From Eutreptiella sp. 'Long Island Sound 2002' (taxonomy: Eukaryota; Euglenozoa; Euglenophyceae; Eutreptiales; Eutreptiaceae), in the NCBI GenBank assembly GCA_964036045.1, contig OZ038381.1, positions 154,460,352-154,524,351 of the forward strand: 64,000 nt of DNA, written 5' to 3'. Both the position numbers and the translations under genes were made by a program. Shown here piece after piece: positions 11,920 to 58,191 of this stretch. Numbering within the stretch: the stretch's first letter is position 1; every line of letters starts with the position of its first letter. The notes below the pieces were generated by a model. The model was not told the origin of the DNA and searched no databases. It saw only the letters and a program-made list of their open reading frames with translations.

Positions 11920-12188
11920 ACTTCCTGAGTGTCTGGTTTTTTTCGATTGACCCACAGAATTTATTTGATGGATCCACCAGTAGTCCAGTCTACTCGGTGA
12001 TTTGCAAAAATCCCCGGCTGTTCAAGTTCTGGGGCAAATCCGTGGATTATTGACAAAAACCCCAAAGCCGCAAATTGGAGTCGAGGCAAGCGGAACACCC
12101 TTGCCGTCATTTACTAGTTGCCTAGCGCAACAACTCACTCGTGAACACCGTCCTAGCCACCTTGTTTGACCACGCCGTTTTCGTGGCT

Positions 12189-15810: not shown

Positions 15811-17365
15811 CGAAGTCCTCGCCTACTCCCCCTCCTGCCCTGCTCCGGCGGCACTGGAGACCAATCCCTATGTTTCATGGACTGCTTTCGCCGCCCACCT
15901 GAAGCACAGCAAACCCAGCAAATCTGGCGGTGGTGACCGTACCAATAATTATCTTTTGCACCTTGCACCTGAACCGATTGAAAATTTCTTTCACCGGGTT
16001 TTGAATAGGTTTCTAAGTTCTCCAATGCCACACCACTGGCTTGGGTCACACGTTTGCCTCCTCTACAAACGCGGCGACCCTTACCAAGCCACCAACTACA
16101 GACCAATTGCGTTACTTAACACAGTATACAAACTCGTTGCCGCCTTCACGTGTCGTCGGCTACAGCAACAAACCTTTAGCCACTCTCTACTTTCCCCCAT
16201 CGAACATGGGGATCTCCCCCGCCATCAGTGCGCCGACCACAAATACCACCTTCAGAGGTTATACGCTGGCTCTAAAAGCAGCTACTCCCTCTACATCGAC
16301 TTCAACAAAGCCTTTAATTCTGTTCCCCTGTCCACACTGTGGACAGTGCTCGAGCATTCAAACCTCTCTCGCGCCGCCATTACGTCGGTGAAAAACCCTT
16401 ACGCGTCCCCTGTAGACGCTCCCATAATTAACGGGCATTGCCCCCACTCCTATGTCCAGGCCTGCGGCCTGCGTCAAGGCTGTCCTCTGTCTTTCCTCCT
16501 TTTCATCTTATCTTTCAACGCCCTTTTCCCTTACTTCTTGGCCACTACCCCTCCGCCCGAACCAGGTCGCGTCACCAGCGACCACGCCTTCATTGACGAT
16601 ATTTTGATCCGCAGCGAGGACCCCTCCTACTCTCAGCGAGCCATCAACTTTTTCGACGGCCCGGCCAGATTGTGGGGCCTGGATATGAATGTCCAAAAAA
16701 CAGAAAACCAGGCCATGGGCCAAGCAGTGCAGGGCACCTTCGCCACCGCCGCGGGCAGCTCATTTCCCACTTTCAACCCCAAGCCTTCCCGCCCACGCAC
16801 CCATTATAAATACCTGGGAGGCTACATTTTCACTCAGCACCAAGCGGAAGGTCTAGACGGCATGACTCGGTCTGAAATTTTAAGCTATTTTCCCCGATTG
16901 TCTCCGCTCCCCCTAACTCTCAGTGAAAGGATACGGTTAGTCAACAGTCAGCTTATTCCTGCCGTCACCTACCGCTTAAGTGCACACCCTCTCCCGCCTC
17001 GGGGCTATTGCCTCGCTGGAAGACTTCATCTGGTGAGGCCTAGCAAAGCGATCCATGACACGCCTGGTCCCTCAAGGACTGGTATGCCTCCAGAGCCCGC
17101 GGGGGTCTTGCCATCAAATGCCTGGCCCACAGCGTCCATACAGCAACCATTCATATCGCTCTGCGTGCCCTCCACGGCAGGGCCCCATCCTCAGTTGGTA
17201 GCCTCGTCACTAACTCCTTATGTGGCCCAAACCAGCAAAGTTCAGACGAGCTTCAAAACTCAGTCATGGACACTGCGCACACCCTTGGCCTCTCCTTCCA
17301 CTCCATCGGCCCCTGGCGTCCCAGCGTATATGAGCACCTCCTGGTCGGTTCCACGGTCACAGTGA
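15770..17365 (+). pseudogene. LINE A ORF2: reverse transcriptase
   Basis: The translation contains NYRPIALLNTVYKLV, DFNKAFNSVPLSTLW, LRQGCPLSF and the catalytic box FIDDILIRSED (16,589 onward), followed by thumb sequence TLSERIRLVNSQLIPAVTYR. The order fits a non-LTR RT of an APE clade. Relative to B it has lost residues around 16,992-17,040, where the frame shifts. The C-terminal region after 17,100 is out of frame, so no functional enzyme is expected. Confidence 0.88.
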
Positions 17366-17689
17366 AATTGAAATCTGGCCCCAACACAGGCACAGTACTT
17401 CGCACCTCCCCCTTCTGGGCCAACGTGCAGTTCAATGACGGAGTATTTTCCATCCCCAGCGACGCTCATTTCACCCATCACCACCCCTGCCACTCTTTCC
17501 TTAACTACTCCCGCCCGCCCCACCAATTTGTCATCGCCACATTCATTTGCCCACAGGAAACCATCCCGGGCTGCCCGGATCCCCCACATGGTGCAACCAT
17601 CTGCTCAGTGACCGTGCACGGCCATCTATTCGACCTGCCAGGTGTCTGCCATCGTTTATACAAAGAGGATTTAAAAACCTGGGGCTGTC

Positions 17690-35150: not shown

Positions 35151-35422
35151 CACACTTTCTGAGTGTCTGTTTTTCTTCGATTGACCCACAGAATTTATTT
35201 GATGGATCCACCAGTAGGCCAGGCTACTCGGTGATTTGCGAAAATCCTGGGCTGTTCAAGTTCTGTGACAAATCCGTGGATTATTGACAAAAATCCCAAG
35301 GCCGCAAATTGGAGCCGAGGCAAGCGAAACACCCTTGCCGACATTTACTAGGTACCTAGCGCAACAACGCACCCGTCAATACCGTCCTAGTCACCTTGTT
35401 TGACAACGCCGTTTTCGTGGCA

Positions 35423-38400
35423 ATGTCGCAACTTGGGCCCAAGGAGCGTTCCGCAACGTCCAAATCGGAAAGCAAGCAGCTAAAGTGTGTAAAAAGCTCT
35501 ATTGCCCGAACTCAAGCTAAAGTGGACGCCAAGTTGACTCAAAGTCGTCTTCTTCCTGCGCTTTCACCTTCAAAATACGAGAATGACCCACTACACCCAC
35601 CACTTGATCTATCCCCGTCACGCGAAGAACAATCATCATCTAATGTCACTTCATCCCATGAACAACCCAAAGATGTTGCAAAAGAACTATTCCCGGACAC
35701 CGACAGCACCGGTAACGCCGCCAAAGAAAGAGGAGCCCTAGAACAACAACAACATTTCAAACCGCTCGCACCGCCAACCGGCACCGAGAAGATTCTGGAC
35801 ACCAAGCCCAAAGACACACACATAAACTTCGAGGGAAACCACTCATGTGATGCCCATGAGTTGGAAGTGACAACTTCGTCATTCTTGTCAAGCAATATGA
35901 AGGGCTCTCCAAGACCGTTATTGTCCACCGACCATGAACAATCCGAAGATATCGCAAGAGAACACTTTGCATCCTCCGCCAACACCGGTAACGCCGCCAA
36001 AGGAAAACCTTCATTGTGTACCCGTTCACTCGCCGTCTTTCCTCCTCCTCCGCCCCCTCCTCTCCCCGACACCGCTAAAGAAGAAGTTGTATCGGGAGGC
36101 ATTGAGAATCCGAGCGGAAAAGACCATCCCCCCGACGAAGCTCTGCTCTTTTGTCAAACCTCCAACCCCGATGGAGTGTTCGGCGCCTTTTGTGAACAAC
36201 GGAAATTGCTCTTAAGTGCACACAATCAACAAGCTCTTTGGGCCGAACCTTATAACGATGGAGAACTAGGCCTAGATGGAAATCAAATGATTCTCCAACA
36301 TTACCACTGCCAACAAATCTATGAAGCCATGCGCCCAACAATTGACTTGAGCGCAAGTGACGGGTGCACCTTTTTTCACAAACTCAACACAACCGTCCCC
36401 ACCGCATGCTCCACCGTCACACACAACAACTTCCACTCTCTCTCCGAAATATTGCACCATCACCCACGCTTCTACATTTTCCCCCACCCTCAAGACTACT
36501 ATAACAACCAGAAAACGTTCGGCCACACTTGGTCCAAATGGGCAAAAAAAATAGGTGAAGTGCGCGGGGAAGCTTTTCAGTCCGGTGTATTATACGAAGG
36601 GTCCTTCATTATGCCGGGCATGGAAGACAATTTGTCGGCCCAAACCTTGTACATGAACCCTCTCAACCCAGGAATGATCTCTTTAGCCCCTTGGATATGT
36701 GGCATACACTGCCTACGGGACGCCCGCACTTACAACCCCACGGTCCATTCGGACGGCGTGGTCCGGCCGGTCTCTTTGAATGATCCCATGTATCCCTACT
36801 TCCATATACGCTTGTCTACAGAAACCAAACACCATGTTTCCATTGCCTACGGCGACATCATGGTACCACACTCGTCACTCCAATGGGCGGTGAATAAGGT
36901 GAACAATGAGATCCAACTTCCAAGCGTAAAATCCACGCTCCGCTTTGAAATCGCCCGCCACCTCTTACCCCACTTCAAGGTCCCTCCCAAATCCACGCTT
37001 GACAAGATGTCCAATAGGGAAAGGGGCGAGTATCGCCGCCGGCGAGGCAACGCCCCAGATTGTTTCGTGCTCATCAACCAACTTTTCCATTTTCACGATG
37101 ACAAAATCTTGGTACGCACCGACAATGCCAAATACCCCGAAGAACGCATACAACCACTCACCCCATCTTCCGAAAGAATGTTTCGCTTTCATTACACAAT
37201 CCCCAGCCCCCTTGCCAAGGAATTGTTAGGCAGGGTCATGAGCCAACCCTTGTGGACCATGGGAAAAGTCTTTGCTATCAACGGTGCCAACCTCGCACCA
37301 GAGATCACGTTCAAAATCACACCGTCCAGGGCTTTCAAACGCGCCTCCCCCGACTTTTACCCAGTCGACGTGTGGAGGGCCATTCTCACTAGCGAGGCTG
37401 CCCGCCGGTGTGGTGTTTTGGGAGCCATCCCCCACACTTACAACAAATTCTATGTGTGCATGGACTACAACCACATGCCAGTGATACCCAACAAAGACTC
37501 CCTCACCACGATGTCTTTCATGCTTTTCCAAGAAAACAACTTGGTCACCTACCGGGGCACAACAGGTGCAATGATCTCCTGGGGCGGTTACGCCTCATGG
37601 CGTGCTAAACACCCGGGGCTAAAAATTGACCTGCCCATCACACGCCACGCTCCCGAGGCACTGGCGTCCCCAACTACTCCCACTCTGACTCCTCAATATG
37701 TCCCAACGCCGAAACCAGAGAACCCAATGCTAGTGGAGGTCCACTCCCCGGCAAATACCCCGGACGTGGATGTCATGTTTGCCATGGGGTTGCTGGGCAA
37801 GATAAAACACATAACTCTCTACAGCTCTAAGATCGCCCGTGTCCGAGTCTATCATGTCACCTACGCGACCCGAGAGTCAGCTATCCTTGCCACAGGTTTC
37901 CGTGTAGGGCAAATTGTTTTTCACCCGGAAGTCCCCGACTCGCTGAAACGAGATTCCATGCTCGGCCCATCAAACCTGTTAGTGAACGAACGCTATGACT
38001 TTGTGAGCAGGATTCTGGCTGCAGCGGCGGCATATGGTAGTGCAGAACAACTCAAGGTTGCGAACGAGCACTATCTGACCCCTATTAACCCTCTAACACT
38101 CACGGAAAAGGTTTCTCAACTTGCGGTGCAAGATTCTGACGATTGGGAAACCATTGAGGGGCTCCCGGGCGCCTTTCTAGCCCCGGATTTTTTTTCCGAG
38201 GACCGAGAATCCCTCGTTACCGCGTGGGCAGAGGACCCTGAACTTGATTGGTCCGAAGAGGGTCAGCGTTGCCTCATCCATCACGGTCACACCTACGACC
38301 CTAAGCTTAAGTCAGTCACCGCTGTGGACAGACACCCCCCTGACTTTGTTGCGGCCATGGGTCTACAGGCGCATGAATCCGCTCTAACGCATACTCAGTG

Positions 38401-38776
38401 CTCCCTCCCCCCCGCCAACATGTGGTCGCTTGCCGAGTACGAACCAGGTTCCGGCGTCAAGAGCCACGTGGATGTGGGAGCCCCGGGCAGCTACCTCCTG
38501 AGTGGATCCTTCGGCTCCGGAGCCGAGATCGTCTTTGAGCCCAGGCCTTTCCCCAACACCGGGCCCCCTAAAGGCAAGAAGCGCATCTTCCTTCAGCGCC
38601 GTCCTCTCCTGCTCCTGACGGGTGACTCCAGGTCACGCTGGAAACACTTGATACCGGCTAGGGACTTTGACTTAGTGGAAAAGAAGAAAATCCCCCGCGA
38701 GAAACGGCTCTCCTTGCTGATTAGGAGTACCCATGAGCCACCTGGCCCTCATCCGCTGGCACAAGATCCCAGATAG
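35423..38776 (+). CDS. LINE B ORF1 with C-terminal AlkB-like dioxygenase domain, intact
   Basis: 1117 residues from the ATG at 35,423 (MSQLGPKERSAT). Residues 1 to about 250 are low-complexity, with an imperfect internal repeat around TGNAAK. A middle region (about 280-700: GELGLDGNQMILQHYH, FGHTWSKWAKK, SIAYGDIMVP, MGKVFAINGANL) is conserved in copies A and D but unrecognised. Residues about 915-1105 form an AlkB-type 2-oxoglutarate/Fe(II) dioxygenase: YEPGSGVKSHVDVG gives the H-x-D iron ligands (H1015, D1017), LLLLTGDSRSRWKHLIPARD gives the third ligand (H1075), and RLSLLIR gives the R-x5-R co-substrate signature (R1095, R1101). AlkB enzymes remove alkyl groups from bases, and plant RNA viruses carry similar domains. 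A role in repairing or demethylating the element's RNA or cDNA is inferred. Confidence 0.88.
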   Translation: MSQLGPKERSATSKSESKQLKCVKSSIARTQAKVDAKLTQSRLLPALSPSKYENDPLHPPLDLSPSREEQSSSNVTSSHEQPKDVAKELFPDTDSTGNAAKERGALEQQQHFKPLAPPTGTEKILDTKPKDTHINFEGNHSCDAHELEVTTSSFLSSNMKGSPRPLLSTDHEQSEDIAREHFASSANTGNAAKGKPSLCTRSLAVFPPPPPPPLPDTAKEEVVSGGIENPSGKDHPPDEALLFCQTSNPDGVFGAFCEQRKLLLSAHNQQALWAEPYNDGELGLDGNQMILQHYHCQQIYEAMRPTIDLSASDGCTFFHKLNTTVPTACSTVTHNNFHSLSEILHHHPRFYIFPHPQDYYNNQKTFGHTWSKWAKKIGEVRGEAFQSGVLYEGSFIMPGMEDNLSAQTLYMNPLNPGMISLAPWICGIHCLRDARTYNPTVHSDGVVRPVSLNDPMYPYFHIRLSTETKHHVSIAYGDIMVPHSSLQWAVNKVNNEIQLPSVKSTLRFEIARHLLPHFKVPPKSTLDKMSNRERGEYRRRRGNAPDCFVLINQLFHFHDDKILVRTDNAKYPEERIQPLTPSSERMFRFHYTIPSPLAKELLGRVMSQPLWTMGKVFAINGANLAPEITFKITPSRAFKRASPDFYPVDVWRAILTSEAARRCGVLGAIPHTYNKFYVCMDYNHMPVIPNKDSLTTMSFMLFQENNLVTYRGTTGAMISWGGYASWRAKHPGLKIDLPITRHAPEALASPTTPTLTPQYVPTPKPENPMLVEVHSPANTPDVDVMFAMGLLGKIKHITLYSSKIARVRVYHVTYATRESAILATGFRVGQIVFHPEVPDSLKRDSMLGPSNLLVNERYDFVSRILAAAAAYGSAEQLKVANEHYLTPINPLTLTEKVSQLAVQDSDDWETIEGLPGAFLAPDFFSEDRESLVTAWAEDPELDWSEEGQRCLIHHGHTYDPKLKSVTAVDRHPPDFVAAMGLQAHESALTHTQCSLPPANMWSLAEYEPGSGVKSHVDVGAPGSYLLSGSFGSGAEIVFEPRPFPNTGPPKGKKRIFLQRRPLLLLTGDSRSRWKHLIPARDFDLVEKKKIPREKRLSLLIRSTHEPPGPHPLAQDPR

Positions 38777-39381: not shown

Positions 39382-40545
39382 GTGTGCCGGCGTGCTCGCC
39401 CGCTTGGGCGTTACCGGGGCCACGCTTCGCAGCACCCTGTACAGAATGAATTCCCTCCTCCCGCCGCTTCTGCCCCGACCACTTCCACTGCACGCTTCCG
39501 CCAAACGGTCATCACCGACCACCTCTCCCCAACCCCACAGTTCCTTCCCCCATCTCCTCCCATCTGCAAGTCCCCTGCTACAGGATTGCCCTACCCAAGT
39601 CATCCCCCCCCTTTTAGGAACCCAGCAAACCCCTCTTTTCCCTTACCACCCCAGATCCATAAAAAACATAAACCCCATTGCGCCCGCCACCCCCCCCCCT
39701 CCATACCCTCCCTCACGGCCCTGTGCATTCTCAGCATAAATGTTGAAAAACGCAAAGACACCTGTGGCATCATTTTACATTTTCTCCGCGAGGGTTATGA
39801 CATAATCCCCCTCCAAGAACTCAACTATCTGCCCCTCCTCGCTGACCAGTGTTCTGTTGGTCTCGACAAAGCAAAAATGTTCGGAAATGTGCAGAGCAAT
39901 CGACACGGCTCCGCCATTGTCTTCGGCCCCAGGATAGCAAAATATGCCACCTCGATTCCAAACCATGACCAAGAGGGCCTCATCTCCGGAGCGGTCCTGG
40001 CTCTCCCTGTGGCCCCGGCACTTGGCGTCTTTTCTGTCTACTCTCCCCCAGTGCCTACTGGACTCCCTGCGCCTTTTCGTGACATCATTGAACGTCACCT
40101 TGTCTACCTTTTCAATAAATACCCCCGCCACATGGTAGGAGGGGATTTCAATTGCGTCATGGACCCAGCCCTGGACCAACATGGCCTAACTGACCCTCAG
40201 CGATGGCCGTAGCTTTCCTGCGAAGTCACCTACGTCCCTGATAGACTTGTCGACACCTTTCGCTCCCATCACTTCTCCGCCCAAGAGTACACGAGGTACA
40301 AATGTGCTCGATGGAATAGTGAGTCCAGGCTCGACTACATTTTCGCCTTCCCCACCACAGTGGCCAAATTCCCCGTTCTAGACGCTTTAATCCTTACCGA
40401 TTACACATAGTCCAACCATCACCCAGTCTCCGCAACATTCTAATGCCCCGCACCTACTTTACTCGCTAAGCCACCCCCCACCCCTTTCGTTTACCGAAAC
40501 CTCAATGAGGAAGAAAAATCCACATACACCTCCCGACTCCTTCAC
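39382..40545 (+). pseudogene. LINE B ORF2: AP-type endonuclease, disabled
   Basis: Endonuclease motifs in order: LSINVEKRKDTCGI, PLQELNYLPLL, MVGGDFNCVMDPALDQHGL and SRLDYIFAF. The terminal Asp-His motif reads SNHHPVS instead of SDHHPVS, so a catalytic Asp is replaced by Asn. Stops occur at about 40,210, 40,408 and 40,443. The nickase is therefore doubly inactivated, although the insertion itself is recent. Confidence 0.88.
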
Positions 40546-42897
40546 TTGGCCACCTGGTGCCACAGTGCTAAAGATTTAGTTGACACAGCGGATGCCGACC
40601 AACTCATCCCTGCTGGAGACTCACTTTTGTCACAGATGGCAACAGTCTTCCACAAGATCACGAGTCCTCGACCCAAGTGTAAACACGTAGAGAACACCAA
40701 GTGGCTACGTTCCTTGGTACGCGACACCCCTCCGCCCTCCTCTCCCTCCTTCTCTGCGCACATTGCAAAAATCAAGGACACCGTAGAGTCCCTGCGTGCT
40801 TCGGATGACCCTGATGCCATCCGCAAACTCCACAGGAGCCTGGTTTGCGGCTACAAAATGAAAAAAGTAGTCACTGAAACCGTATGTCCCAACGACATGC
40901 ATCCCACTGTGGTTCGTGAACCTGCTATGGGACAGTTGGAGCAAGACCCGGTGCGCGTCGCGAAGATCTTCGGCTCCACACTGCAGCACCTTGGTGGGGA
41001 CCCCTCTTACCAACCTCCGCCTGGGTTTGTTAACGAACTCCTCGCCTACTTCCCCTCCTGCCCTGCTCCGGCGGCATTGGAGGCCATTCCCTATGTTTCA
41101 TGGACTGCTTTCGCCGCCCGTCTGAAGCACAGCAAACCCAGCAAATCTGGCGGTGGTTACCGTACCAATCACTATCTTTTGCACCTTGCACCTGAACCGA
41201 TTGAAAATTTCTTTCACCGGGTTTTGAATAGGTTTTTAAGTTCTCCAATTACACACCACTGGCTTGGGTCACACATTTGCCTCCTCTACAAACGCGGCGA
41301 CCCTTACCAATCCACCAACTACAGGCCCATTGCGTTACTTAACACAGTATACAAACTTGTTGCCACCTTCACGTGTCGTCACCTACAGCACCAAACCCTT
41401 AAACACTCCCTACTTTCCCCCATCAAACACGGGGGACTCCCCCGCCATCAGTGCCCCGACCACATATACCACCTTAAGAGTTTATGCGCTCGCTCCAAAA
41501 GCAGCTACTCCCTCTACATCAACTTCAATAAAGCCTTTAATTCTGTCCCACTGTCCACGCTGTGGACAGTGCTCGAGCATTCAAACCTCTCTCGCGCCGC
41601 CATCACGTCGGTGAAAAACCTTTACGTATCCCCTCTGGACGCTCCCATAATTAACGGGCATTACCGCCACTCCTATGTCCAGGCCCGCGGCCTGGGTCAA
41701 GGCTGTCCTCTGTCTCCCCTTCTTTTCATCTTATACTTAAACGCCCTTTTCTTTTACTTCTTGGCCACTACCCCTCCCCCCGACCAAGGTCGCGTCACCA
41801 GTCACCGCGCCTTCATTGACGATATTTTGATCCGTAGCGAGGACCGCTCCTATATACAGCGAGCCATCAACTTTTTCGACGGCCTGGCCAGAATGTGGGG
41901 CCTGGACATGCATGTCCAAAAAACAGAAAACCAGGCCATGGGCCAAGCAGTGCAGGGCACCTTCACCACCGCCGCGGGCAGCTCATTTCCCACTTTCGAC
42001 CCCAAAACCTCCCGCCCACGGACCCATTATCAATACCTGGAGGTCTACATTTTCACTCAGCACCAAGCAGAAGGTCTAGACGCCATGATTTGGTCTGAAA
42101 TCTTAAGCTATTTTTCCCGATTATCTCCGCTCCCCCTAACTCTCAGTGAGAAGATTCGGTTGGTCAACAGTCAGCTTATTCCTGCCGTCACCTACCGCTT
42201 AACTGCCCATCCTCTCCCCCCCCGGGCCATTGCCTCGCTGGAGGACTTCATCTGGAGAGGCCTGGCAAAGGGATCCATAATGCGCCTGGTCTCTCTCAAG
42301 GACCGGTATGCCTCCAGAGCCCGCGGGGGTCTTGCCATCAAATGCCTGGCCCAGAACGTCCATACAGCAACCATTAAATTCGCTCTGCGTGCCCTCCACG
42401 GCAGGGCCCCACCCTCGGTTGGTAGCCTCGTCACTAACTCCTTATGTGGCCCAAACCAGCAAAGTTCAGACGAGCTTCAAAACTCGGTCATGGACGCTGC
42501 GCACAACCTCGGGCTCTCCTTCCACTCCATCTGGCCTTGGCGTCCCAGCGCGTATGAGCACCTCCCGGTCGGTTCCACAATTACAGTGAAATTTAAATCT
42601 GACCCCAGCACAGGCACAGTGCTTCGCACCTCCCCCTCATGGGCCAACGTGCAGTTCGCTGACGGAGTATTTTCCATCCCCAGCGACGTTCATCTTACCC
42701 ATCACCACCCGTGCCACTCTTTCCTCAACTACTCCCGCCCGACCCACCAATTTCTCATCCCCACATTCCTTCGCCCACAGGAAACCATCCCGGGCTGCCC
42801 GGATCCCCCACATGGTGCGACCATCTGCTCAATGACCGTTCACGGCCATCTGTTCGACCTGCCAGGTGTCTGCCATCGTTTGTACGAAGAGGATTGA
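40546..42897 (+). CDS. LINE B ORF2: linker and reverse transcriptase, long open segment
   Basis: 783 codons without a stop; the first codon is internal to ORF2, so this is not a separate gene. It begins in the linker (LATWCHSAKD) and carries the RT blocks NYRPIALLNTVYKLVATF, NFNKAFNSVPLSTLW and LGQGCPLSPLLFILYLNALF. The catalytic FIDDILIRSED lies at residues 423-433, and the thumb contains EKIRLVNSQLIPAVTYR. It ends at a TGA (EED stop) where copy A reads on into RNase H, so this stop is a nonsense mutation. As part of a polyprotein it would perform target-primed reverse transcription. Confidence 0.9.
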   Translation: MATWCHSAKDLVDTADADQLIPAGDSLLSQMATVFHKITSPRPKCKHVENTKWLRSLVRDTPPPSSPSFSAHIAKIKDTVESLRASDDPDAIRKLHRSLVCGYKMKKVVTETVCPNDMHPTVVREPAMGQLEQDPVRVAKIFGSTLQHLGGDPSYQPPPGFVNELLAYFPSCPAPAALEAIPYVSWTAFAARLKHSKPSKSGGGYRTNHYLLHLAPEPIENFFHRVLNRFLSSPITHHWLGSHICLLYKRGDPYQSTNYRPIALLNTVYKLVATFTCRHLQHQTLKHSLLSPIKHGGLPRHQCPDHIYHLKSLCARSKSSYSLYINFNKAFNSVPLSTLWTVLEHSNLSRAAITSVKNLYVSPLDAPIINGHYRHSYVQARGLGQGCPLSPLLFILYLNALFFYFLATTPPPDQGRVTSHRAFIDDILIRSEDRSYIQRAINFFDGLARMWGLDMHVQKTENQAMGQAVQGTFTTAAGSSFPTFDPKTSRPRTHYQYLEVYIFTQHQAEGLDAMIWSEILSYFSRLSPLPLTLSEKIRLVNSQLIPAVTYRLTAHPLPPRAIASLEDFIWRGLAKGSIMRLVSLKDRYASRARGGLAIKCLAQNVHTATIKFALRALHGRAPPSVGSLVTNSLCGPNQQSSDELQNSVMDAAHNLGLSFHSIWPWRPSAYEHLPVGSTITVKFKSDPSTGTVLRTSPSWANVQFADGVFSIPSDVHLTHHHPCHSFLNYSRPTHQFLIPTFLRPQETIPGCPDPPHGATICSMTVHGHLFDLPGVCHRLYEED

Positions 42898-44935: not shown

Positions 44936-46709
44936 ACTGTATCTGCATCGGAAACGTGTGTCAGAGCCGCGGCGGCAGTGCAGTTCCAGTTAGTGAGGGC
45001 AACCTCGCTAAGTGAGTGAGCTATGGGGAGCGGGAAAAGGGGACCATGGACTCTTTCAACTGCCCCATCTTTTAGCCAAAAGCAACTTTGTGATACACCC
45101 ATCCAACGAGGACTACCGGCCCACCAAACAAATCGAATTCGGACACACCAAGAGAGAATGGGCCTCATCCATAGCGGAATGCTGCACCGACTGCGCCAAC
45201 CAAGGTCGGGTAGTCGAAGGTGGGTTCATCATTCGCGCTCCCCATGAACACATTCGGGCTAAAACCTTTTTCCTCCAATACCTTCCTCCGACCGTGCTCT
45301 TGCTCATCCCATGGATGAAAGGTGTTTACGTCATACACGGCTCCGACGTGTCCATTGCAACCCTCAATAGTGGCTCGGTGCATCTTCAATCCCAAGCAAA
45401 GATTTTAGAGCCCCACGTTTTTCTCCTCAGAACATCCCATGGCTCACACCACCACAAGGAGTGGGAATACCACAACATCTATGAGCCGTTGGATCAAATC
45501 CAATGGGCACTTAAAAAAATTAAATCCGACATTCCCTATGCACAAGCTACGCGCGTCACGCGAATTGAAGTTCACTGTAGCCTCTTACACCCTTCTTGGA
45601 CACGCACCGCGCTGACACGCCCTCAGAAAGCTAACCATCGTAAAACCGAGGGTAACCTTACGCAATTTTGGGAGTTGGTAAACCAGGTCTTGTGCAAGGT
45701 CCCCTAAGATGTAAGCTTGAGTTCACGGACCGCTGCCATTCCCATGGGCAAACTCACCCCACTTGAAGCATCTTCCGAAGAGTACTACCGGTTTGATTGG
45801 CTGCTCCCGACCCCATTTGCCCATAAACTACGCGAGCACGTCATCCACAGCGATTTCTGGAAACAAGGGAAGCTCTTTGGAATTGACTTGTCCCTATTGG
45901 AATCAGTGGTCCTGTACAAAGTGCAGCCATCCAGGGCGTACCTCAATCGGCACCCCAACACTCTCCTCCACGACCTCATGCAAAATGTCCTGTCCATGCC
46001 AAATATGGGAACCGCTATCACGCTTTTGGGTGCATGTCCCAGGAGCGAAGTGTCTATTTTTTTGGCCCTGGACATGTCCCGGATGCCCCGCCAAGGGGCT
46101 AGATCCCATGAAGGCACGCTCGCATGGAACTTTCACTCCGAAGCATACATGGTTGTCTTCAAACCATTGAAGGATGCCATGATCTTTTGGAATGGCCAAG
46201 CGTCCACCTTTGCACAGCACACACCTACCTCCCCTGCCACACCGCCACCTCCGCCCTTTGTCCCTACAGATGCTCCAAAACCCACTCGCCCACCCGAACC
46301 AGCCGACCCTCACACAGTAGATATAGTGAAAGGTGAAAGGTACACCCATGTATGACATCCAGATAGTCGCAGCACTATTGGGTGTTTTCACCAAGTTTTT
46401 CGTCGCCCAGGCATGGGCAGTCCGCAAAACGCGGTATTCGGTCCGGTATAAGCACGTCAAGGCGGCCGTTGCCGGGCATGGAGGCATGACCGTCACAGCA
46501 CAAGTTCCAGCTCTGGACCTCCAGAAAGAACTACTTCAATCGATATCCATCGACCCGCGTCAAACGGACGCTGAAAACGGTCGGGCTCAGGTCATTCAAT
46601 ACTGCACTGAACATGACTCCCGGGAAGCCATTCACCGCATACACCAACAATATGAGGCGCGCGCGAAAGAGCTGAACACCACGGAAAAAATGTCTTTGCT
46701 CGACCCGCC
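44936..46709 (+). pseudogene. LINE D ORF1, middle region
   Basis: It aligns with residues ~340-900 of LINE B ORF1: IEFGHTKREWASSIAECC with FGHTWSKWAKK, EEYYRFDWLLPTPFAHKLRE with the FRFHYTIPSPLAKELL block, and ALLGVFTKFFVAQAW with MGLLGKIKHITLY. Defects are a frameshift near 45,010, an in-frame TAA at 45,705 and another frameshift near 46,340. The frame at 45,012 opens with GTG and is not a true start. It is interrupted at 46,709 by the TIR transposon and continues at 52,968. Confidence 0.82.
46704..46709. repeat. Target-site duplication of the 6.25-kb TIR transposon, left copy
   Basis: CCCGCC is repeated at 52,962-52,967. Joining the flanks gives a continuous LINE D frame (DPP, then PPGAHYVEDA, matching LPGAFLAPDF in copy B). 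The duplication could be slightly longer or shorter than 6 bp. Confidence 0.6.
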
Positions 46710-47378
46710 ATCACCCCGCGCGCCCACTTGGTCCCTAGTTTCATCTTACCACAACTCAATATTCATCTTAAAATGTTTAAGATGAAAATCTTGAAATTAA
46801 ATCTTATTCATCATGCCTTCTTTTTTTCGGTCATATTGGTTCCAAATCTGTGGTTGGGTGCCTGCTGCAGATGCCGTGCGCGCGTGTGCGACTGTTTCTG
46901 CCTGTCGCCGCAACTTTTTGCACGGAAAGTTTTTTCACAGAAAATTCGTCGTACGAAGAATAATTTCGTCGTACGATGAAAGTTTACAATGAATTTAGCG
47001 CGCCGGAAGCGACATGCAAAAATCCGCACCAAAATCTGACACAGTAACAGTGAAAGTCGTAACAGTCGCTTCCAACACTCAATGGCAATCAAAATAGATA
47101 CGTTCAGTTGCCCTCTGCACCGTCAGGCGCTGCACCACTCGCACCTGCACCTTCTGACACCTTATCTGTTTGTTCCTCGGGCTTTTCTTGATGTGCAGCT
47201 GGTGCTGGTGGTGCAGCTGGTTCTGCAGCAGCTTCTGCCTTGCGTGCCTTGCGGGCTTCGCGCTCCTTCTGCTGCTGTTCCTTCATCTTGCGCTTCTTCA
47301 GTGCCAGCGTCATGCCTTTGCAGTAAAGCCCGGCTTCTTTGGGAGTGCGAAACGCGATGCGAGCAGCAAGGTATTGAC

Positions 47379-49085
47379 TTAGGCGGCTCAAGTTGCATGG
47401 TCAAAATCACACAAAATGCACCCAATTTGGACCATGCAAAAAAATAATTTTTCACAGGCTCTGTCTTTTGAAAACAGATTATTAGTCCAAAGAAAGTATC
47501 TTTCTTACCATTTGTGCCATTTCGTGCCTTTTTTCGGACAGCCGAAAACAAAAAAAAACTATAAAAAGAATAAAGAAATCTTATGATTTCAGTGGAAAAT
47601 GATGTGCTTTTGTTGGAAATTGGCCAAGAAATACATTTTGCGTTCCCCTTGTTTTTTGGATGAACATGGTCTGCAGAAAAAATGATTGCAACATCATTTT
47701 CTGTTCTGCATGTTCATTGCATACCTGGAAAAATGATGTATTGATCGAATTCTATGCGCGAGGCCTCGCGCTATCAAGACCAAGGATCATTAAAACAGAA
47801 GCATGGCGGATGCAATATCAATGCAAAACATATGCAACATGTGGTTCAAGGGCTGCCCCATGTGCGAGGCCTCGCGCATAACTTACTAAACCAAAAACCT
47901 CACCCGATTCATTTTCCTTTGGAAAGACGGCTTCAGGGTCGAGTGGTCTTAGTACCCACCCCACGGTTTGATTTTTGATTTGCACTGCCTGAAAAAAGAG
48001 GTATAGGTTGTGACTTTCAAGTTCTGGGACTGCATTGCAGTCCTCATTGCGCGAGGCCTCGCGGAAAAAAAAGCCCAGAAAATATATTCTTTGTACCATT
48101 GTGATGGGTTCTCATCTGATAGAGCTTGTGCAGAACCTTCACTGAGGCAACGAGTACCTAAATTGTCGTTGAGTCATTGAAATTTACCAGAAGCTTGCCC
48201 CCCCCGTAGGCGGAAAAACTCTTTTTGGGCTTGGTCAGCCCCTGCCCCTGGCAGACTGCTTCCCCCAAGGCACCTTCTTTCTCCAGCTATCGAACATCAT
48301 CTTGATAATTGGTGTCGTTTGCACTACATTGCATTTTACTCTCCAAAAAATCAGTTTTTTTGGCCAAAACAAACGCTCAAAAAACTGCCATGCATGGCAA
48401 ATTCATATTTTCTTTGCACATTTTACTTTGATCAATAGTCAACAACGGAAGGATCAATTTTTTTTTAGCGAAAGCTACAAGGGGGGTCCCTATCCATCTC
48501 AGCGGCATCTGTTGAGTGGACATGCTTCATGTGTTACCAGTGATACTCTTTTTTTTGCTTGACACTCCCCATAAGTTGTGGCAGGTGTGCATCATGAGCA
48601 ATGCTGAAGGATGCACCCTGTGCAACACCTCCAACGTATTTGCTCCTTTTGTTAGGAATGCAACAACATTTGAAATGATTTCTTGAGTCATCAATTAGAT
48701 TTGCAAGGGTTGTTTAGAGCACTGAATGTCCGCCCGCGTAAACATATTGTACAATGTGATCAAGTCAAGGGTGCCTGTAATGTCACTCCAGTGTAGGCGC
48801 CTGCTTGATTCCTCAATTGTACCATCATTACCTGACTTTGGAGGGGCAATGGACTGCTCCTTGCGCGAGGCCTCGCGCAAGGAACAGTCCATTGCCCCAA
48901 AAAGGGCATTTTTTGGACCCATCAGGACCAAGAAAAGGCCAAAATTCCTTACATAAGAGTCCTTTTGGTGTTCCAAAAACGGCTTGATTTTTTGCAAGCC
49001 AAAGAATGGTTCTTTTGATGTTTTTTGAGGCCGTGTATTTTGAGCACTTTCTGTCGTTTTATACCATGCAACTTGAGCCACCTAA
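47379..49085. mobile_element. TTAGGCGGC-type TIR element, copy 2 (1.7 kb)
   Basis: The ends TTAGGCGGCTCAAGTTGCAT (47,379) and its inverse with one mismatch (ending 49,085) are flanked by TATTGAC and GATTGAC (7 bp, one mismatch). Excision in silico restores the transposase frame of the host transposon. The element carries four GCGAGGCCTCGC palindromes (47,758, 47,864, 48,051, 48,865) and no transposase. Only about the first 9 bp of the TIR are shared with copy 1, so the family is defined by short ends, 7-bp duplications and the palindromes. Confidence 0.85.
48843..48898. repeat. 56-bp near-perfect palindrome around GCGAGGCCTCGC
   Basis: 28-base arms (GGGGCAATGGACTGCTCCTT, then GCGCGAGG, and the inverse) differ at one position. 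It could extrude a long hairpin. It is the largest of the palindromes in the TTAGGCGGC elements. Confidence 0.9.
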
Positions 49086-50577
49086 GATTGACCTTCCACG
49101 TTCCAGCTCTTGTCGGTCGCATTGTCAGGAAGCCAATAGATAGTGCTCTTAGTCCGCTCCGCTTCAGCCACTAGTTCGTCAGATACTTTCGTTCCTCTAG
49201 GCTCATAAAATCGACGAGCGATCCCTGGTGCCACCTTCCATTCGTCAGTGGCCTCGGCCTGGTATGGGACATACGAACACTTCATTCCTTTGGCAAAAGT
49301 TGTTTGGGTAACGCCTTCATCGCTGGCATTAGTGTCATCTTCCTCTTCCTTGTCTTCACCTTCATCCTCCTCTGCCAGGGCTCCTAGTGAACAGCCTTTT
49401 TCTGCTCATGCTGCATTGCTCTTGCTGCGTTCTCATCGGTCTCCAATGCTTGTAGCATCCCCAATGTTCGAGCTGGTGCACGTCTCAGTGAATTTAGGAT
49501 GCCTCCTGCAGTGAGAACATGCTGAACCCCAAGGTCAGTACCAATATTGCCCACAACAAATCGAACTCCTACAACTGAGCGCTCAACAGCTTCAACATGA
49601 GGAAAGAGCAATGAACGAACGACATTTTTCGTACCGTTTCATCGTACGACGAATTGTTTTCTTCGTACGATGAATTATTCGTCTTACGATGAATTTTTAA
49701 GATGAATCGTCGTACGTTACGCGCGCACCTCTTCACAGGTTGCCTACCTCATATTGGCGCTGCTTTGTCACATTCTCCTGGAGTGCAGCAGTCACGGCTG
49801 CCATCAACGTCGCGCTCCAATTTGGTGCTACTGCTACTGGTGATGGAGGCTCACTTGGTTCTTGTAATGGTGCAGATGTCGATCTCATAGCAGGTGGTGG
49901 CGCAGATGTTACTGGAGGTCTCCCTTTCTGCTTGCCCTCAGGGATAGGAATATTCCAAATGTCAGGTGCGGGGGTGCTGGAAAACCATAGCATCAATTCC
50001 CCCGCTTCAGCATGAAGCTCAACAACTCCATGTAATTTCCAGATGACTCGGGATAATTTTAGCAGGGCGGTTGGAGGCACCGGAGGCTGACGGGGTGGAT
50101 TATTTCTCTGCTTTTCAGTCAATGGGACACCAAAAGGTCGCTAGCCAGCCTGCTGATTTGCTGTAACCCAGGCATCCAGGCTCATGCTCTGGTGCTGCTT
50201 CGTAAGCTTGTTCCGACAACGACCAAAAGCATGATTGAGTGTCACGTGCACCATGGTAGGGTCCGTGTAAATGGGTGTCGACGGCCCAAGAATATCAACA
50301 TCATCCTCCAGGCACTTCAATAACATTGAGTTCACGTGGCGTTCCTCCACGACGACCTTCTCATGGCTAGACAGCTTGTGGCCAGACATTTCAGAAGGGG
50401 GCTGCCAAGTGCACTGCGTGGGCTATCCGTGGCACTGAGGTCAAGTTGTCGCACAAGGTCTTGAGCCAATTGTGTTGGTGTGTGAACCAATTGATCTGCA
50501 GCTGGCAGCTCCTTGCTTGGAGTCACCGTGGCTGCCGGAGCTTGTTTCAGGGCCTGAGGTGGCAGGAATGGCGTTGT

Positions 50578-50793
50578 CTGCAAAAAATACATTTTTTTCC
50601 GGTTTTGCAATTTTTTCTGTTTTTTCCGAATTTTTTCTTCGTACAACGAATTTTTTTTCTTACGATGAATATTTTCGTCTTAAGAAGAAATTTTAAGATG
50701 AATTTTCCCGACGAAAAAAATTTCAAAATTTTTTTTGAAAAAATTATTGTTATTATTATTATTGTTAATATCATCATTATTTTCACAGCATAC
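50578..50793 (-). other. Intron 2 with palindromic filling
   Basis: Donor GAG|GTATGC and acceptor TTTTTTGCAG. The 216 bp are almost pure A/T apart from palindrome-forming TTCGTACAACGAA, TTCTTACGATGAA and TTCGTCTTAAGAAGAA, plus an ATT microsatellite. The same motif class fills the other introns. Confidence 0.75.
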
Positions 50794-51827
50794 CTCTTTT
50801 CACTTCTTGAACTCCAGAAATTCTTTGAAATCTTGGTCCATTTTGGCTTCGGTATTGAGCGATCCAGTGATGCCAGACGTGATGTGCAGGGTCGTGGCAC
50901 GCCATGGGCTTCCAGATGTGCATGATTCAATAGAAAAACATGCAGAATGGTGTATCTTAGTGCAAAGGCTTCGCCCAATCCATATTCTGTTGCAGAACCA
51001 CCCCCTCTGCTGCTGTGCTGGAGGTATATTCCCTTCATAATTGCATTCATGGTTTCTGTCAGGTCGTTTGAAAACATCGCCAGACCGACTCCCAAGTTGC
51101 GACATTCGCTGATGATGGTTTTCATGTCATGGATGAGGATGTACAGATACGACGATTTGGAATGGGGAACACAATGCAACTGGAAGTTGCGTGCCGCTAG
51201 CTCCACCCGATCTTCCAAGCCGTCAACGGGGGGCCCAGAGTGATACAGTTGGCGCAGTACTTCACCCAGCTCCCGCACAGCCTCATCTGCTGCAGATCTG
51301 TGAATGCTCAACACATGTGCCACTGTATCCCAAGCGCAAAGCAGACGCTGGACTTCCTGGCCATCTGGTGCAGACTCCTTGTGCAACCCTCTCCATCGGA
51401 TGTTGGCAGCCTTGAACGTCGCTTTCAGCAGCCGCACCCTGTTGTTTGGCAAGTCCAGTGCAACCTTGCGTGTAAAGGATAAGATCGGCTTACCACAGAT
51501 CATCATGATGTGTAGAATACAAGGGAAAAATGATGATCTATCAGTGTCAAACATGGGTTCATATTTGACTCCCTTTCCAGCCTGTACAACAGGCAGTTTG
51601 CCTCTGCATTGTGCGTCCTCCTCAGGTGTTCTCTGCCTTTCCCACCCAATGAATTCTTGGTGCACATCAGACCAAATACCATAGGAGAATGGGGAAGGAA
51701 CCATCCAAGTTGTACTGAGTCCGAGGATACCACAGAGAAACAGCAGGTCGCCACCAAACTTGCAGGTACCCGGCACCATGCCACACCGCACAGAAATGCA
51801 ACCAGTCGTCAAGATTTGCTGAATGGC

Positions 51828-51924
51828 CTGCAGGGAAGAGAGAATTTTTTCTTCTTAAATTTTCTTCTTACAATGAAAAATTCATCTTACGATGAAACAT
51901 CACGAAGAATGCATCGCAGCACAC
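51828..51924 (-). other. Intron 1 with palindromic filling
   Basis: 97 bp, donor GAG|GTGTGC and acceptor CCCTGCAG. It contains TTCATCTTACGATGAA and CTTCTTAAATTTTCTTCTTA. It interrupts the coding sequence at the same residue as the intron of the relative at 3262-3380. Confidence 0.8.
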
Positions 51925-52961
51925 CTCCACATTGGTTTTCCAAAGAATCTTCAGGTCCTCCATGTCCTTGTCGCTTGCAAAGACCAGTGAAATCACCCAC
52001 ATGTGGCTGGTTGTCCTTGCATGGCGACCATGGTCCATGATGGACACATTTAACTGCGTCCAACTACGTCCCGCAACCGGATAACCATCGCCTCGGATAA
52101 TCAATGTGATACCATCCTGCGGGTCTGCAACAGTGTCCCAGATAGCATCCTGGGACTGCACATATTCCAACCATTCTTCGAGTGGCCAGGAAATTGAGAC
52201 GGTGTTGTTGTACCATGTAGGTGACTCCAATGTACAAAGGCTTGTGAGACTTTTCCATGTGTCCTCCACAGTCCGTCGACCCGGGAACAAATGGGGAACA
52301 CGAACCCCGGTGGCATTGAAGTAGGCCTGCTGCTTGGCACTTGCAAAAGACAGGAGGTGCCTGTATTTTGCCCGGGAGAGGCCAAGTGCCACAATCTAGC
52401 ACACAGCTTGTATAGGACTACACCAGTTTTTTGTGAAATCGTGCAGCTCAACATTTTTTGCAGTCATTTGCATCTTCTTGTTGATTTGGTGGAATAGGGA
52501 GCGACCAAGAGTAGAACAATCAAAGAAAGCCGCTAGTAACGTGTCAGCATCGTCACCATAAGCTGAGTATTGATGTGTTATCTTCTTGATTGCTGTTTGT
52601 AGTTGTTGAATTGCGGTTTCCATCGCTCTGAAAAAAACGGGCAAACAAAAGGCGGATGTGCACAACAATAGGGGGTGGATTTTTGATTTGGGCAAATCCT
52701 AATGATTAATCAAGCAATCCATCAACTTCATAGCTGCAATGATAAATGTAAATGTTTACAACTGCAAAGGTGCAAAGAGTCCCCAGAACTGTAAAACTAC
52801 AAAAAAGTGTAGGCAAAAAGGTGGAACCCAAAAAAAAAAATTCAGCAGATTATTCTTCTTATTTTTCTTCTTACTTTTCATCTTAAGATGAATTTTTCAT
52901 CTTAAGAAGATAAATTTCTTAAGATGAAACTAGGGACCAAGTGGGCGTGCGGGGCAGTATG

Positions 52962-53574
52962 CCCGCCGGGAGCCCACTACGTCGAAGACGCCATAAGCGG
53001 ATCCGTGCTAGAATCCGTCGTGTCTGCCGTACCAAAGGAAATAATGAAACACATCGGGCCCCGCGCCACAACAGATTATGGGTTCTCCTACGACCCAAAA
53101 TCCGAGCACATCACCCCAACTACACCAATTCCTCCTGTCTCCCAAACCCTCTTTGGCGTCGCACACGCCAAAGCCTTGCAGATAGACCCTTCTCTTGCCC
53201 ACCCGAACCAGGTCTCCATCAATTTCTATCCCGTCAAACCGGAACCTTCGGAAATCGGATACCACACCGACAAAGCACGGCTGGGCTCGTGGGTAGGAAT
53301 TTTTTCCTGGGGCTCCACCTGTAATTTTGACATGCACAAGCACAAGACGCCGCTGGAGTCGCCCCTCGATTGGTCCTTTTTCCTTTGGCCCGCATCCCTG
53401 CTCTTGCTCACAGGAGAATGTCGTCACCGCTGGAGCCACGCCATAGCGGCTCGGGACCACGACTTGCATGACAGCGTCAAATACCCCCGAGACGCTAGGT
53501 GGAGCATCGTCGTACGCAGCGTGGATCCCCCCTTCTCTGAACATCCCAGTCCTTCCCCGCCGGAGCAGCCATGA
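52962..53574 (+). pseudogene. LINE D ORF1: AlkB-like dioxygenase domain, readable to its stop
   Basis: About 200 codons, equivalent to residues ~905-1117 of LINE B ORF1. It contains YHTDKARLGSWVGIF (iron ligands H and D at 53,263-53,271), LLLLTGECRHRWSHAIAARD (third ligand at 53,437) and RWSIVVRSV (R-x5-R, 53,497-53,517). The signature residues are therefore kept in a copy strongly diverged from B, which argues for long-term selection on the domain before this copy died. The ATG at 52,924 lies in the transposon end and is not native. The stop TGA (53,572-53,574) overlaps the ATG of ORF2. Confidence 0.85.
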
Positions 53575-54331
53575 AGTCCCTTTCCACCTGCATGCCTCCC
53601 TCCCTCCAATCTAGGCTAGCTAACCTTGGCGTGCACAAACACGAGATCTCCACGCTTCATCCTCCAAAGTACCTCGCCCCGACACTACCTTCCCCCCTGC
53701 CAGAGCCCGATAAACGTCGTGCTGGATCCCCTCCCCGCCCTCTGCCTTTCGAGTCCTCGCCACCAGTCTCAGTCCCTCGACCATGGGGTTCATTAGACCA
53801 GTATCTTCAGCCCACTACTCCCGCCCCCCTCTCCAAGCCCCCTGTGCGGCTCAAAGCTAGAAAGCAGTATCAGCGACTCATCATTTCTCCTGCCCCCCCA
53901 CTCACAATGGTACGGATCATATCAATCAATTTTCGTAAAAGAGAAGATTCCAAGGAAAGCATAATCTTAAAGTACCTTCAGGAGGGGTCTGACATCATTC
54001 TTTGTCAAGAATTGAACTCCCCACCCCAAGTACCAATGGCGTTCGCCTCGGGCATGGACCGCGTCCGCATTTACCACAACACCACAGGACGAGCCTGCGG
54101 CGCGGCAGTGGTGGTCGGCCCATCCCTAAGCCTCTTCTCTCAGCCATTACCCACTTTCAAAGACACCCATGGGCTGCTGGCTGCATGCACCGTCGACCCC
54201 CCGGGGCTTCCCACCCTGGCTATAGCATCCGTCTACTGCCCCCCCCACAGACCCACTGACCCTGCACTCTACCGTGACACCCTCGAAGCGCTTCTCCCCC
54301 GCCTCGCGGCAAAATACCCCCTTCACCTACT
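53571..54331 (+). pseudogene. LINE D ORF2 start and first half of endonuclease
   Basis: ATG at 53,571 overlaps the ORF1 stop as ATGA, a typical reinitiation arrangement. About 115 Pro-rich residues precede the endonuclease, which begins MVRIISINFRKREDSKES and DIILCQELNSPP. The frame is intact up to KYPLHLL at the insertion site of the passenger element and continues at 56,761 with GGDFNAVLDP. Confidence 0.85.
54316..54331. repeat. Target-site duplication of the 2.4-kb passenger, left copy
   Basis: ACCCCCTTCACCTACT recurs exactly at 56,745-56,760, and the LINE D frame is continuous across it (PLHLL, then GGDFN). Confidence 0.93.
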
Positions 54332-56744
54332 GTTTTGTTGAATGTTCTTAACCACATCAACTTGTTCAGGGGCTGACGTCCCCCTAAGGAAGACGTCCAG
54401 AAATTTACAGACGATAGTTGTAGCTGTGAAATTGGCACAGGTCACAGAAGTAAAGGGTTGAAGACCCCGGAGCAAAATTCAGGGTCAGAGACCCGAAGTG
54501 GAACTCGCCTAGATGTCGTGCGGTCTTCTGTGTGCACTGGTGTGTGTGTGGTGTTGGTTATGTGTGTACTTGCTCCGTACGTGGGAATTCAGTGCAGAAG
54601 TGTGCCGGTGTGTGTTGTCTGTTGTGTTGGTGATGTGGCACGTGGTCTGTCGATGAAGTGAAAGGAGTGAGGACCTGTGTAAAATTAAAAGGACTTTACA
54701 AAAACAGATAGATGTAGGCACAGACTCTCTGCACTAAAGGTGGGTTGGTTTTCCTGCACACTCTGCAGTTTGCAAAAAGCCTTGCTTTCACCCCAAGGGG
54801 AAAAGGTCACAGGCAGATTGCAGCACGGCAGACTAGAGCAAGATAAGGCGTCATGGCACATCAATGTGCAGAGAAGCTGAGAAATGTCAGCAGTAGCACT
54901 AAGTAGCAGAAAGTCAAGTGCTTTCGAGAACCTTGCGCTGGCAAAAGAGACGAATCACGAAGAGGAGAGCATGGTAGTACGTTTGTCTCCCTGCCGGTCA
55001 TACCAACGAGGGCAGCAGATAGCGCTGCGCTCAATGCCCTGCACAGGACGCCAAAGAAAGTTGCAGTCGCACTTTGGATAGCTGCAGGTAGTTTGATAGC
55101 CGTGCCCTTTCACAATGGTGTCGTTACATAAGTGGTGGTGGGCAGAAAAACAGGCATCATCAAGCCAGTCAAAGTCCTCCAACACCGATGTTGCACACGA
55201 TTGCTCAAAAAATGAATAGCCATCAGCAGACCCCCCCTTAGCGAGGGAGTGAGCGCTGCTCATGGATGAGGCCAAAGAATCGTTATCTCAGAAACGGCCA
55301 TGTACTCCTGAGCTCGTTTCAGAATTGTTGTCGGAAAGAGGAGGGGTATCGCCGGATTCTGCAGAATGAGAGCATCGCGTAGGTTCAAGTGTACTGTCGT
55401 CAGGGAGAAGCGTGGAGGCTTGTCCCCATACGTCTCGATTCGGCGGAGGGACCGTGCCATACACCGTTACGCGTGCACGTTGAGCTCGCACTTTCTTCGC
55501 AGCGCAATAGCGCCGCCGATGAAACCGGGCGTGTGTAGGAACATCTCTAGAAATTTGAGTGCCGAAGTGTTCCTTCGTACACGTGGGCGTGAACCGTCTG
55601 CAGCGCTTAGTCCGCGCTGGGTACCAATGTCCCTGGGCGGTTGCATCGCTGTCGAAAGTCGCCCCATAGGTTACGGGTGCAGGAAGGGACTCACGGTCAT
55701 TCTCGTGCTCAGATTCACCAGCTTCAGAGACGGTCGTGTCTTGTCGAGCTGTAGCAAGGGCGTTTGTAGCGTCCAGCGACGACCAGTAATTTGCAGACAC
55801 ATAGGCTGATCCAAAGAGAGATTCGGTCTCAGACTCCTTGTCCTGGGAACAGCACTTGGGTAATTGGGTGGCAGCGGCGGCGCTGGTACTGAGTTGCTGA
55901 TGGCCAGCGTCCGGGGCAATTGTGACACCGCCGCACACAGATGAGCCCGGCGGGGGCTCACAGGTGGAGATGGCCGGCGTATTGTGGGTCTCGGCAATAG
56001 AAGCTGGGTGCACCCGAATCTTTACGGGAGAGTTATCGTAGTCAAAATGTTCTTCCGCGGAGTCCCCGTGGGCCACTGCAGGGTCCGGCACGTAGGGACT
56101 GTGGCACCATGGTAATGTCAAGGCAGACTCACCGGTAGGGCTCTCCTGCACGTTTACCGGTCTTTGTAGTGGTAGCTCATGCCCTACAGCCTCATCAGAA
56201 TTTGCTGCAGGAGCATAGGCATGCGATTGGTCCGTCCCGTCCGTAGTCCAATCTTTGGTAGCGGGCATATACAGATGTGGGAAGTATTCGAACCCTTGGC
56301 TCACGTAGGCAGTCTGGCAAAGGCCTTCGTCCCCGTACGTTGCAAGTTGAATGTCTTCGTCCCATCGCGGGATGAAGCAGTGTCCGCTAGGTGCTGTAGC
56401 ATCATGGCGTGATGCCCAAGACTCCTGTGGAGGACAAGGAAAAAGGGAAACATGCTGCGCTAGCGCAGAGGTAGAAATAGAGGACAGCTCCCAAGTAAGC
56501 AGCGCGTTGATTTGTGCACTTCTTTTCTGCAGCGCCACAGTCTGCATTAATGACTCCAGAAACTGTCCCTGCGTCGCTGCAGCTGCGCGTAGGCGCGCCA
56601 TAATTGAACCAGAGATAATTAGTTGTTCAGGGCGATTTCACGTGGGTAAAACCCGGAAACCCCCAGTGAAGGACGATTTGGAGTATTGTTTGCGATGTTG
56701 CAGGCGCGGCGCGCGCGATCCGCCCGCGAGTTTTAGTGCGTTTC
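54332..56744 (-). mobile_element. LINE-tailed non-autonomous retroposon carrying an unrelated ORF
   Basis: Bounded by a perfect 16-bp duplication, the same length as that of LINE B. Read on the minus strand, its 3' end is GGGGGACGTCAGCCCCTGAA, CAAGTTGATGTG, GTTAAGAACATTCAACAAAAC. This matches the tail of LINE A/B over about 50 bp. No RT or endonuclease is encoded. The body consists of a short 5' leader (143 bp), an open frame of 437 codons, a stop, a further in-frame Cys-rich segment and a ~600-bp 3' region. Best explained as an element using the LINE machinery in trans. Confidence 0.8.
54955..56601 (-). CDS. Unknown ORF of the passenger element (437 codons, TGA, then a Cys/His-rich segment)
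   Basis: ATG at 56,601 (MARLRAAAATQGQFLES). Residues 1-437 are Ser/Thr/Glu-rich and acidic, with a basic patch near residues 340-380 (ARTKRCRRFTPTCTKEH, HRRRYCAAKKVRAQRARV). At 55,290-55,288 is a TGA. The same frame then stays open for more than 100 codons, carrying FSAHHHLCND, TTCSYPKCDCNFLWRPVQG and SAICCPRWYDRQ, a likely zinc-binding segment. The frame conservation after the stop suggests either a recent nonsense mutation or readthrough. I recognise no family. A nucleic-acid-binding role is suggested only by the basic and Cys/His-rich parts. Confidence 0.55.
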
Positions 56745-56760
56745 ACCCCCTTCACCTACT

Positions 56761-58152: not shown

Positions 58153-58191
58153 AGGTAGGGGGGGGCGACTTCGTGCATACTATCCCAAGAA

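Follow-up and report, generated by a model that had tools for sequence, protein, structure and literature searches.

We describe a retrotransposon of the long interspersed nuclear element (LINE) kind whose first open reading frame (ORF1) ends in an AlkB-type 2-oxoglutarate/Fe(II) (2OG-Fe(II)) dioxygenase domain, constrained about as the element's own reverse transcriptase (RT) is. The copy called LINE B lies in 64,000 nt of DNA from Eutreptiella sp. 'Long Island Sound 2002' (GCA_964036045.1, contig OZ038381.1, positions 154,460,352 to 154,524,351, forward strand); this whole stretch is called the window, and coordinates refer to it. LINE B ORF1 comprises a low-complexity N-terminal part, a core without assigned fold and the AlkB domain at the C-terminus:

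35396..38776, plus strand: LINE B ORF1, 1126 codons from a TTG, or 1117 residues from the ATG at 35423
38168..38776, plus strand: AlkB-type 2OG-Fe(II) dioxygenase domain of LINE B ORF1, with H1015, D1017, H1075, R1095 and R1101

The presence of an AlkB domain in this ORF1 is confirmed. Translation of 38168-38776 gives 202 stop-free residues, in frame, that close ORF1, and all five signature residues are present; both points had been made in the first-pass annotation of the window, which also proposed a search with an AlkB hidden Markov model, a structure prediction and a comparison of nonsynonymous and synonymous rates (dN/dS) across copies. The Pfam profile PF13532 (2OG-FeII_Oxy_2/AlkB; curated cut-off 31.2 bits) matched LINE B ORF1 at 28 bits (E 3e-06), and was over its cut-off for the domain of LINE D, a second element in the window (59 bits, E 9.4e-16), for L032, a copy of a family called E (47 bits), and for the ENA match P0003 (41.5 bits). 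In a sequence search of the PDB the best match was ALKBH8 (3thp, E 8.7e-08), with whose corresponding residues the H-x-D motif and the third His align; in the alignment with Ofd2 both Arg align too. LINE AlkB domains of different families are about 36% identical to each other, and in the alignment of B, D and E the five catalytic positions are all invariant, as are 50 of the 199 gapless columns (chance 0.0009). In a 29-row alignment the second Arg lies outside the columns conserved at 90% or more. The structure predicted for the domain has the AlkB double-stranded beta-helix fold; a first prediction from 8 rows was set aside, its predicted local distance difference test score (pLDDT) being 37.5.

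Beyond PF13532, the only Pfam match in LINE B ORF1 and P0003 was TMEM171 in B, at chance level (E 0.45); neither an RNA-recognition motif (RRM), a zinc knuckle nor a methyltransferase was found in these two, and the ORF1 core had no Pfam match. With an E limit of 1, NCBIfam held no match to the domains of B, D and E. Under the same limit a profile of ORF1 residues 341-1126 matched no PDB sequence, which says little on the core because it missed even the AlkB structures found with the domain by itself. ORF1 needs RNA binding, yet Pfam shows none of the usual RRM or zinc-knuckle modules there, and one could imagine that the AlkB fold has lost catalysis and serves ORF1 as an RNA-binding or docking module. 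This is improbable, however: the catalytic residues are kept across families despite the divergence of their domains, and within family E the two His, the Asp and the first Arg are kept in 20/20 copies and the second Arg in 19/20.

The element is a non-long terminal repeat (non-LTR) retrotransposon, with ORF1, an ORF2 encoding an endonuclease of the apurinic/apyrimidinic (APE) type, RT and RNase H, and a poly(A) tail. In LINE B, ORF2 is read in three parts:

39382..40212, plus strand: endonuclease part (APE type), ending at an in-frame stop in this copy; Exo_endo_phos 15.2 bits, cut-off 24.5
40546..42897, plus strand: RT part; RVT_1 80.3 bits
42898..43500, plus strand: RNase H-like part, past another in-frame stop, read by eye against the family-E copy L018

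Pfam gave no match to 42898-43500 alone. The ORF2 of L018 is over the cut-offs for RVT_1 (114.3 bits), RNase_H (26.3, cut-off 25.8) and Exo_endo_phos (24.7, cut-off 24.5), and the best PDB match for the element's ORF2 is human L1 ORF2p. LINE B ORF1 is 53-55% identical to that of family E, from which 20 copies, chiefly stop-free ones, were taken out of 41 scored matches. All 20 run through ORF1 to residue 1112 or beyond, then into the endonuclease and then the RT, L020 losing the element midway through the RT; their DNA identity is mostly 96-98%, and lower for L020, L022 and L031. Compared with L018, the 5' end is common within 3 bases in 17 of 19 copies and the 3' end falls at a short poly(A) in 13 of 19, for an element length of about 9.35 kb. 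Target-site duplications of 8-18 bp flank 11 of the 13 copies tested (at least 12 bp in 10 of these 11), the longest common word in 156 mismatched flank pairs being 7 bp; L017 was scored as a miss, its alignment having started late so that its 5' flank fell within the element. The poly(A) is 6-14 long in those 11 of the 13 copies whose pattern was parsed. The common ends, the poly(A) and the duplications therefore indicate target-primed insertion with the AlkB domain aboard. The element thus resembles L1-type LINEs in its APE-RT-RNase H ORF2, poly(A) and target-site duplications, and differs from them in an ORF1 of about 1120-1140 residues that combines the unmatched core with an AlkB domain. 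One copy, L034, has an extra 1 kb or so (L034:3690-4925) where ORF1 residues 710-1125 match a second time.

We then considered how regularly the domain accompanies the element in the host genome assembly (2.28 Gb, 2205 contigs), where copy counts are lower bounds because only part of the first-look candidates was scored. With LINE B ORF1 as query there were 3217 first-look candidates, of which 41 were scored; all 41 extend at least to residue 1117 and so include the domain. With the LINE D domain (150 of 1440 candidates scored), we found the window copy, at least 20 D-type pieces at 64-91% identity, one match at 42% and at least 128 at 33-37%, LINE B included, the others of which were taken as family E. 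The 42% match (L046, G000:C3:159226450-159227100) represents a fourth, decayed LINE AlkB family, F. Well over a hundred copies of the LINE AlkB were scored, all in one genome. Loci of the D-type core and of AlkB were paired by position, by hand: among the matches listed, 10 of the 11 core loci elsewhere in the genome are followed by an AlkB piece in the same orientation, over distances that reach about 17 kb when insertions separate the two; C2:157942918 is the one miss. Captured fragments do occur, as in P0023 (733 aa), a single member in which an unlike RT (PF00078) is joined to the ORF1 linker and AlkB and which is probably a chimera from an insertion. By analogy, the LINE domain might have no role and be a passenger, derived from a host AlkB gene that happened to be picked up beside or inside a LINE. 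We give this very little credence, since the domain is present in all the scored ORF1 matches and at nearly all the D-type core loci just described, is under constraint, and stands apart from the other AlkBs of the genome.

This last point comes from a tree in which 8 LINE rows were compared with 4 database relatives and with 7 further AlkBs from the genome, without viral rows or an outgroup; L007, a broken near-copy of L001, was left out. All LINE rows lie on one side of a branch (96/96), apart from the 7 other genome AlkBs, and adjoin the database relatives (LINE plus relatives, 89/93). B pairs with E (98/97) and D with F (99/98), and L002 and L006 have long branches. This fits a single AlkB capture before at least four LINE families split. 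The PF13532 search of the genome gave at least 151 matches from 150 scored of 1107 first-look candidates, all matches listed exceeding the cut-off. At its eight best matches, L001-L008, tblastn found no LINE ORF1, and from their ORFs these look like other AlkB genes of the genome. Among such non-LINE frames, L003 has 683 codons and an apparent CCCH zinc finger by eye, and L002 lies on a 14.7-kb contig.

Among known proteins, the closest to the LINE domain are cellular enzymes: ALKBH8 and Schizosaccharomyces pombe Ofd2 by sequence, and ALKBH6 in a fold search with the predicted structure, ALKBH6 being only a weak match by sequence (7vjs, E 0.0098). The Fe ligands align, and structural alignments give 22-27% identity (24% for ALKBH8). 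The four database relatives are 23-27% identical to it, one of them (P0177) being named 'alkB family protein 8'. This name and the first rank of ALKBH8 in the PDB would accord with an activity like that of ALKBH8 towards tRNA or other RNAs of the host, which could tune how the element is translated or how the host responds, instead of acting on element RNA. Such identities are too low for naming a substrate, however, and ALKBH8 carries RRM and methyltransferase domains, neither of which accompanies the LINE domain in ORF1 by Pfam; we therefore regard this explanation as having little probability.

Constraint was assessed in the 20 family-E copies by splitting single-base codon variants into those found in one copy (singletons) and those shared, and by computing nonsynonymous over synonymous changes per site (N/S), for which only comparisons between regions, or between shared and singleton variants, are valid. 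In ORF1, shared variants (N:S, with N/S in brackets) were 9:15 (0.18) in AlkB, 11:44 (0.07) in the core, 7:19 (0.12) in the linker and 19:15 (0.36) in the N-terminus. In ORF2, from 19 copies without L020, they were 10:15 (0.22) in the endonuclease, 9:16 (0.17) in the RT, 11:22 (0.16) in the post-RT part and 15:14 (0.33) in the RNase H part. Between AlkB and RT there is no difference (Fisher p 1.0). Singleton N/S was 0.35-0.54 in ORF1 and 0.46-0.62 in ORF2. Within AlkB, shared and singleton variants differ (9:15 versus 56:32, Fisher p 0.034, uncorrected for the eight regions tested), and a binomial p of 4.9e-05 for AlkB variants rests on site counts without a mutation model. In family D (window D and nine older copies, L037-L045; L046 was too distant to include), the nine pairs with dS above 0.5 have dN/dS of 0.17-0.26. 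Synonymous sites are saturated between B and E (pS, the proportion of synonymous differences, 0.72-0.81), and no dN/dS is given; between B and L010 the values (AlkB 0.43, core 0.82) are weak evidence, L010 being a decayed copy. The AlkB domain thus looks to have been kept intact by selection while the element spread through the genome.

What could such a domain do for a LINE? The proposal of the first-pass annotation, that the element uses it to repair or demethylate its RNA or cDNA, or against host methylation, is supported. LINE ORF1 proteins bind element RNA, and we infer therefrom that the domain acts on that RNA: we favour, with moderate confidence, a predicted activity by which the ORF1 AlkB would oxidatively remove methyl groups from element RNA within the particle. 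The ORF1 protein would coat the RNA, and the C-terminal dioxygenase would thereby be positioned on the template for reverse transcription. There it might remove lesions or marks that stop the RT, such as N1-methyladenosine (m1A) and 3-methylcytidine (m3C), or else the N6-methyladenosine (m6A) by which the host would recognise the transcript; either way, more full-length cDNA could result. Alternatively, the domain may work on DNA, demethylating N6-methyladenine or repairing alkylated bases at the target site or in the new cDNA, which would ease target-primed reverse transcription or allow escape from a host DNA mark; this we consider unlikely.

Several points weigh against action on element RNA by a conserved enzyme. 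The PF13532 match of LINE B is itself under the cut-off, and the catalytic site is altered in some relatives (Asp to Glu in P0142, second His to Gln in P0135). The point estimates put AlkB under weaker constraint than the ORF1 core (0.18 versus 0.07), though without significance (Fisher p 0.16), and its difference from the loosely constrained N-terminus is not significant either (Fisher p 0.19). Absolute N/S values are biased low because intact, full-length, high-scoring copies were chosen, singletons being already below 1, and over all 45 family-D pairs dN/dS spans 0.17-0.70. The LINE AlkB has been seen in one genome only, with no second species shown as a carrier. Finally, ALKBH6 and ALKBH8 are not, to our knowledge, general RNA-repair enzymes.

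Concerning that single genome, we asked whether the ENA matches came from another species. This was rejected: P0003 is 100% identical to L036, and P0142 and P0150, compared by eye, read as L038 and L039, P0150 differing in short stretches at indels; the remaining ENA matches are taken to be of the same origin. The sole other source of ORF1 was a Joint Genome Institute (JGI) contig of 1154 bases (P0046), which encodes a partial family-E ORF1 that matches L018 at 99% identity across 288 residues. Scans of viral contigs with P0003 and of genome contigs with LINE B ORF1 gave no relative. Contig C2205 of the assembly encodes an intact rubisco large chain of 475 residues whose best PDB match is 1gk8, which we take to be Chlamydomonas rubisco, and the host is therefore taken as an alga with a green-type plastid. 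This contig is unlikely to be a stray contaminant, because two large contigs, C7 and C2, hold matches with the same or nearly the same score.

The components of the element are each of known kinds, and we rate the combination of a LINE ORF1 with a conserved AlkB domain as new. The first-pass annotation knew of no LINE family with this architecture, and we found none among the titles and abstracts listed, mostly open access with few subscription journals and without Repbase; the sole transposon-borne AlkB among them was that of a Ty3/Gypsy element of Phalaenopsis orchids. As described in PMC9289625, that element is an LTR retrotransposon of about 25 kb in which an extra ORF encodes an AlkB (2-oxoglutarate-dependent dioxygenase, 2-ODD). 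This AlkB is a homologue of RNA demethylases of plants; it binds RNA and demethylates m6A in vitro, which shows that m6A demethylation of RNA is a possible function of an AlkB carried by a retrotransposon. The Eutreptiella element differs in being non-LTR and algal, in the fusion of AlkB to ORF1, and in having ALKBH8 and ALKBH6 as nearest matches. Plant positive-strand RNA viruses (closteroviruses and others) likewise carry AlkB, within replication-related polyproteins that appeared in our fold search; their genome type is another, and their AlkBs rank below the giant-virus and phage proteins that were the best viral matches to the predicted fold. If our reading is true, the LINE would add one more separate case, beside the orchid elements and the plant RNA viruses, of a genetic element that uses RNA and has captured AlkB. 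It bears on whether hosts restrain transposons through RNA methylation, and whether transposons answer. An AlkB under RT-like constraint in so many scored copies suggests that selection has long favoured such an activity, and it is an enzyme candidate open to direct testing. We tentatively propose, at somewhat short of even odds, that a LINE lineage incorporated a nucleic-acid demethylase into the protein that coats its RNA and retained it while splitting into at least four families. The demethylase would be an epitranscriptomic self-protection from methylation of RNA (or DNA) by the host, gained separately from that of the orchid Gypsy element.

Two further elements of this kind lie in the window, one of them interrupted:

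12162..17670, plus strand: LINE A, a B-type copy (tblastn); ORF1 residues after 531 absent, AlkB included
45012..46713, plus strand: LINE D ORF1 core and linker, in pieces, with one stop and one frame change; tblastn 27% to LINE B residues 359-739, E 1e-42
46714..52954, no strand: 6.2-kb insertion with 35-nt terminal inverted repeats (inverted-repeat search; arms 97% complementary), splitting LINE D ORF1 immediately before AlkB
52954..53571, plus strand: LINE D AlkB domain, the PF13532 match given above; tblastn 34% to LINE B domain
53541..54338, plus strand: beginning of LINE D ORF2, including the endonuclease part; 38% to the LINE B endonuclease by tblastn, E 5e-24
58159..60522, plus strand: LINE D ORF2 RT part; RVT_1 104 bits, 45% to LINE B RT

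The missing second half of LINE A ORF1 is, we infer from the sequence, a deletion. LINE D has all five signature residues, as had been claimed, and keeps the usual order of parts despite the insertion. Its AlkB domain does belong to ORF1, which is not continuous in this copy owing to the inverted-repeat element in between; in P0150, a further D-family copy, the linker runs into AlkB without the 6.2-kb insertion. The start at 52,962 given earlier for this domain is out of frame: it reads in the frame of 52,960, within an open frame at 52,906-53,571. Pfam gave no match to 53772-54338 in the endonuclease part. LINE D ORF2 is broken at least twice within 54338-58159, where 57397-57942, between the endonuclease and RT parts, contains by eye a short tandem repeat. 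A tRNA search of the window found none. Inside the 46714-52954 insertion, minus-strand frames at 50550-51854 and 51871-52395 have no Pfam match and by eye resemble frames at 2308-4151 (minus strand). Finally, 31622-34892 on the minus strand appears by eye to be the 3' portion of another LINE of the same kind.
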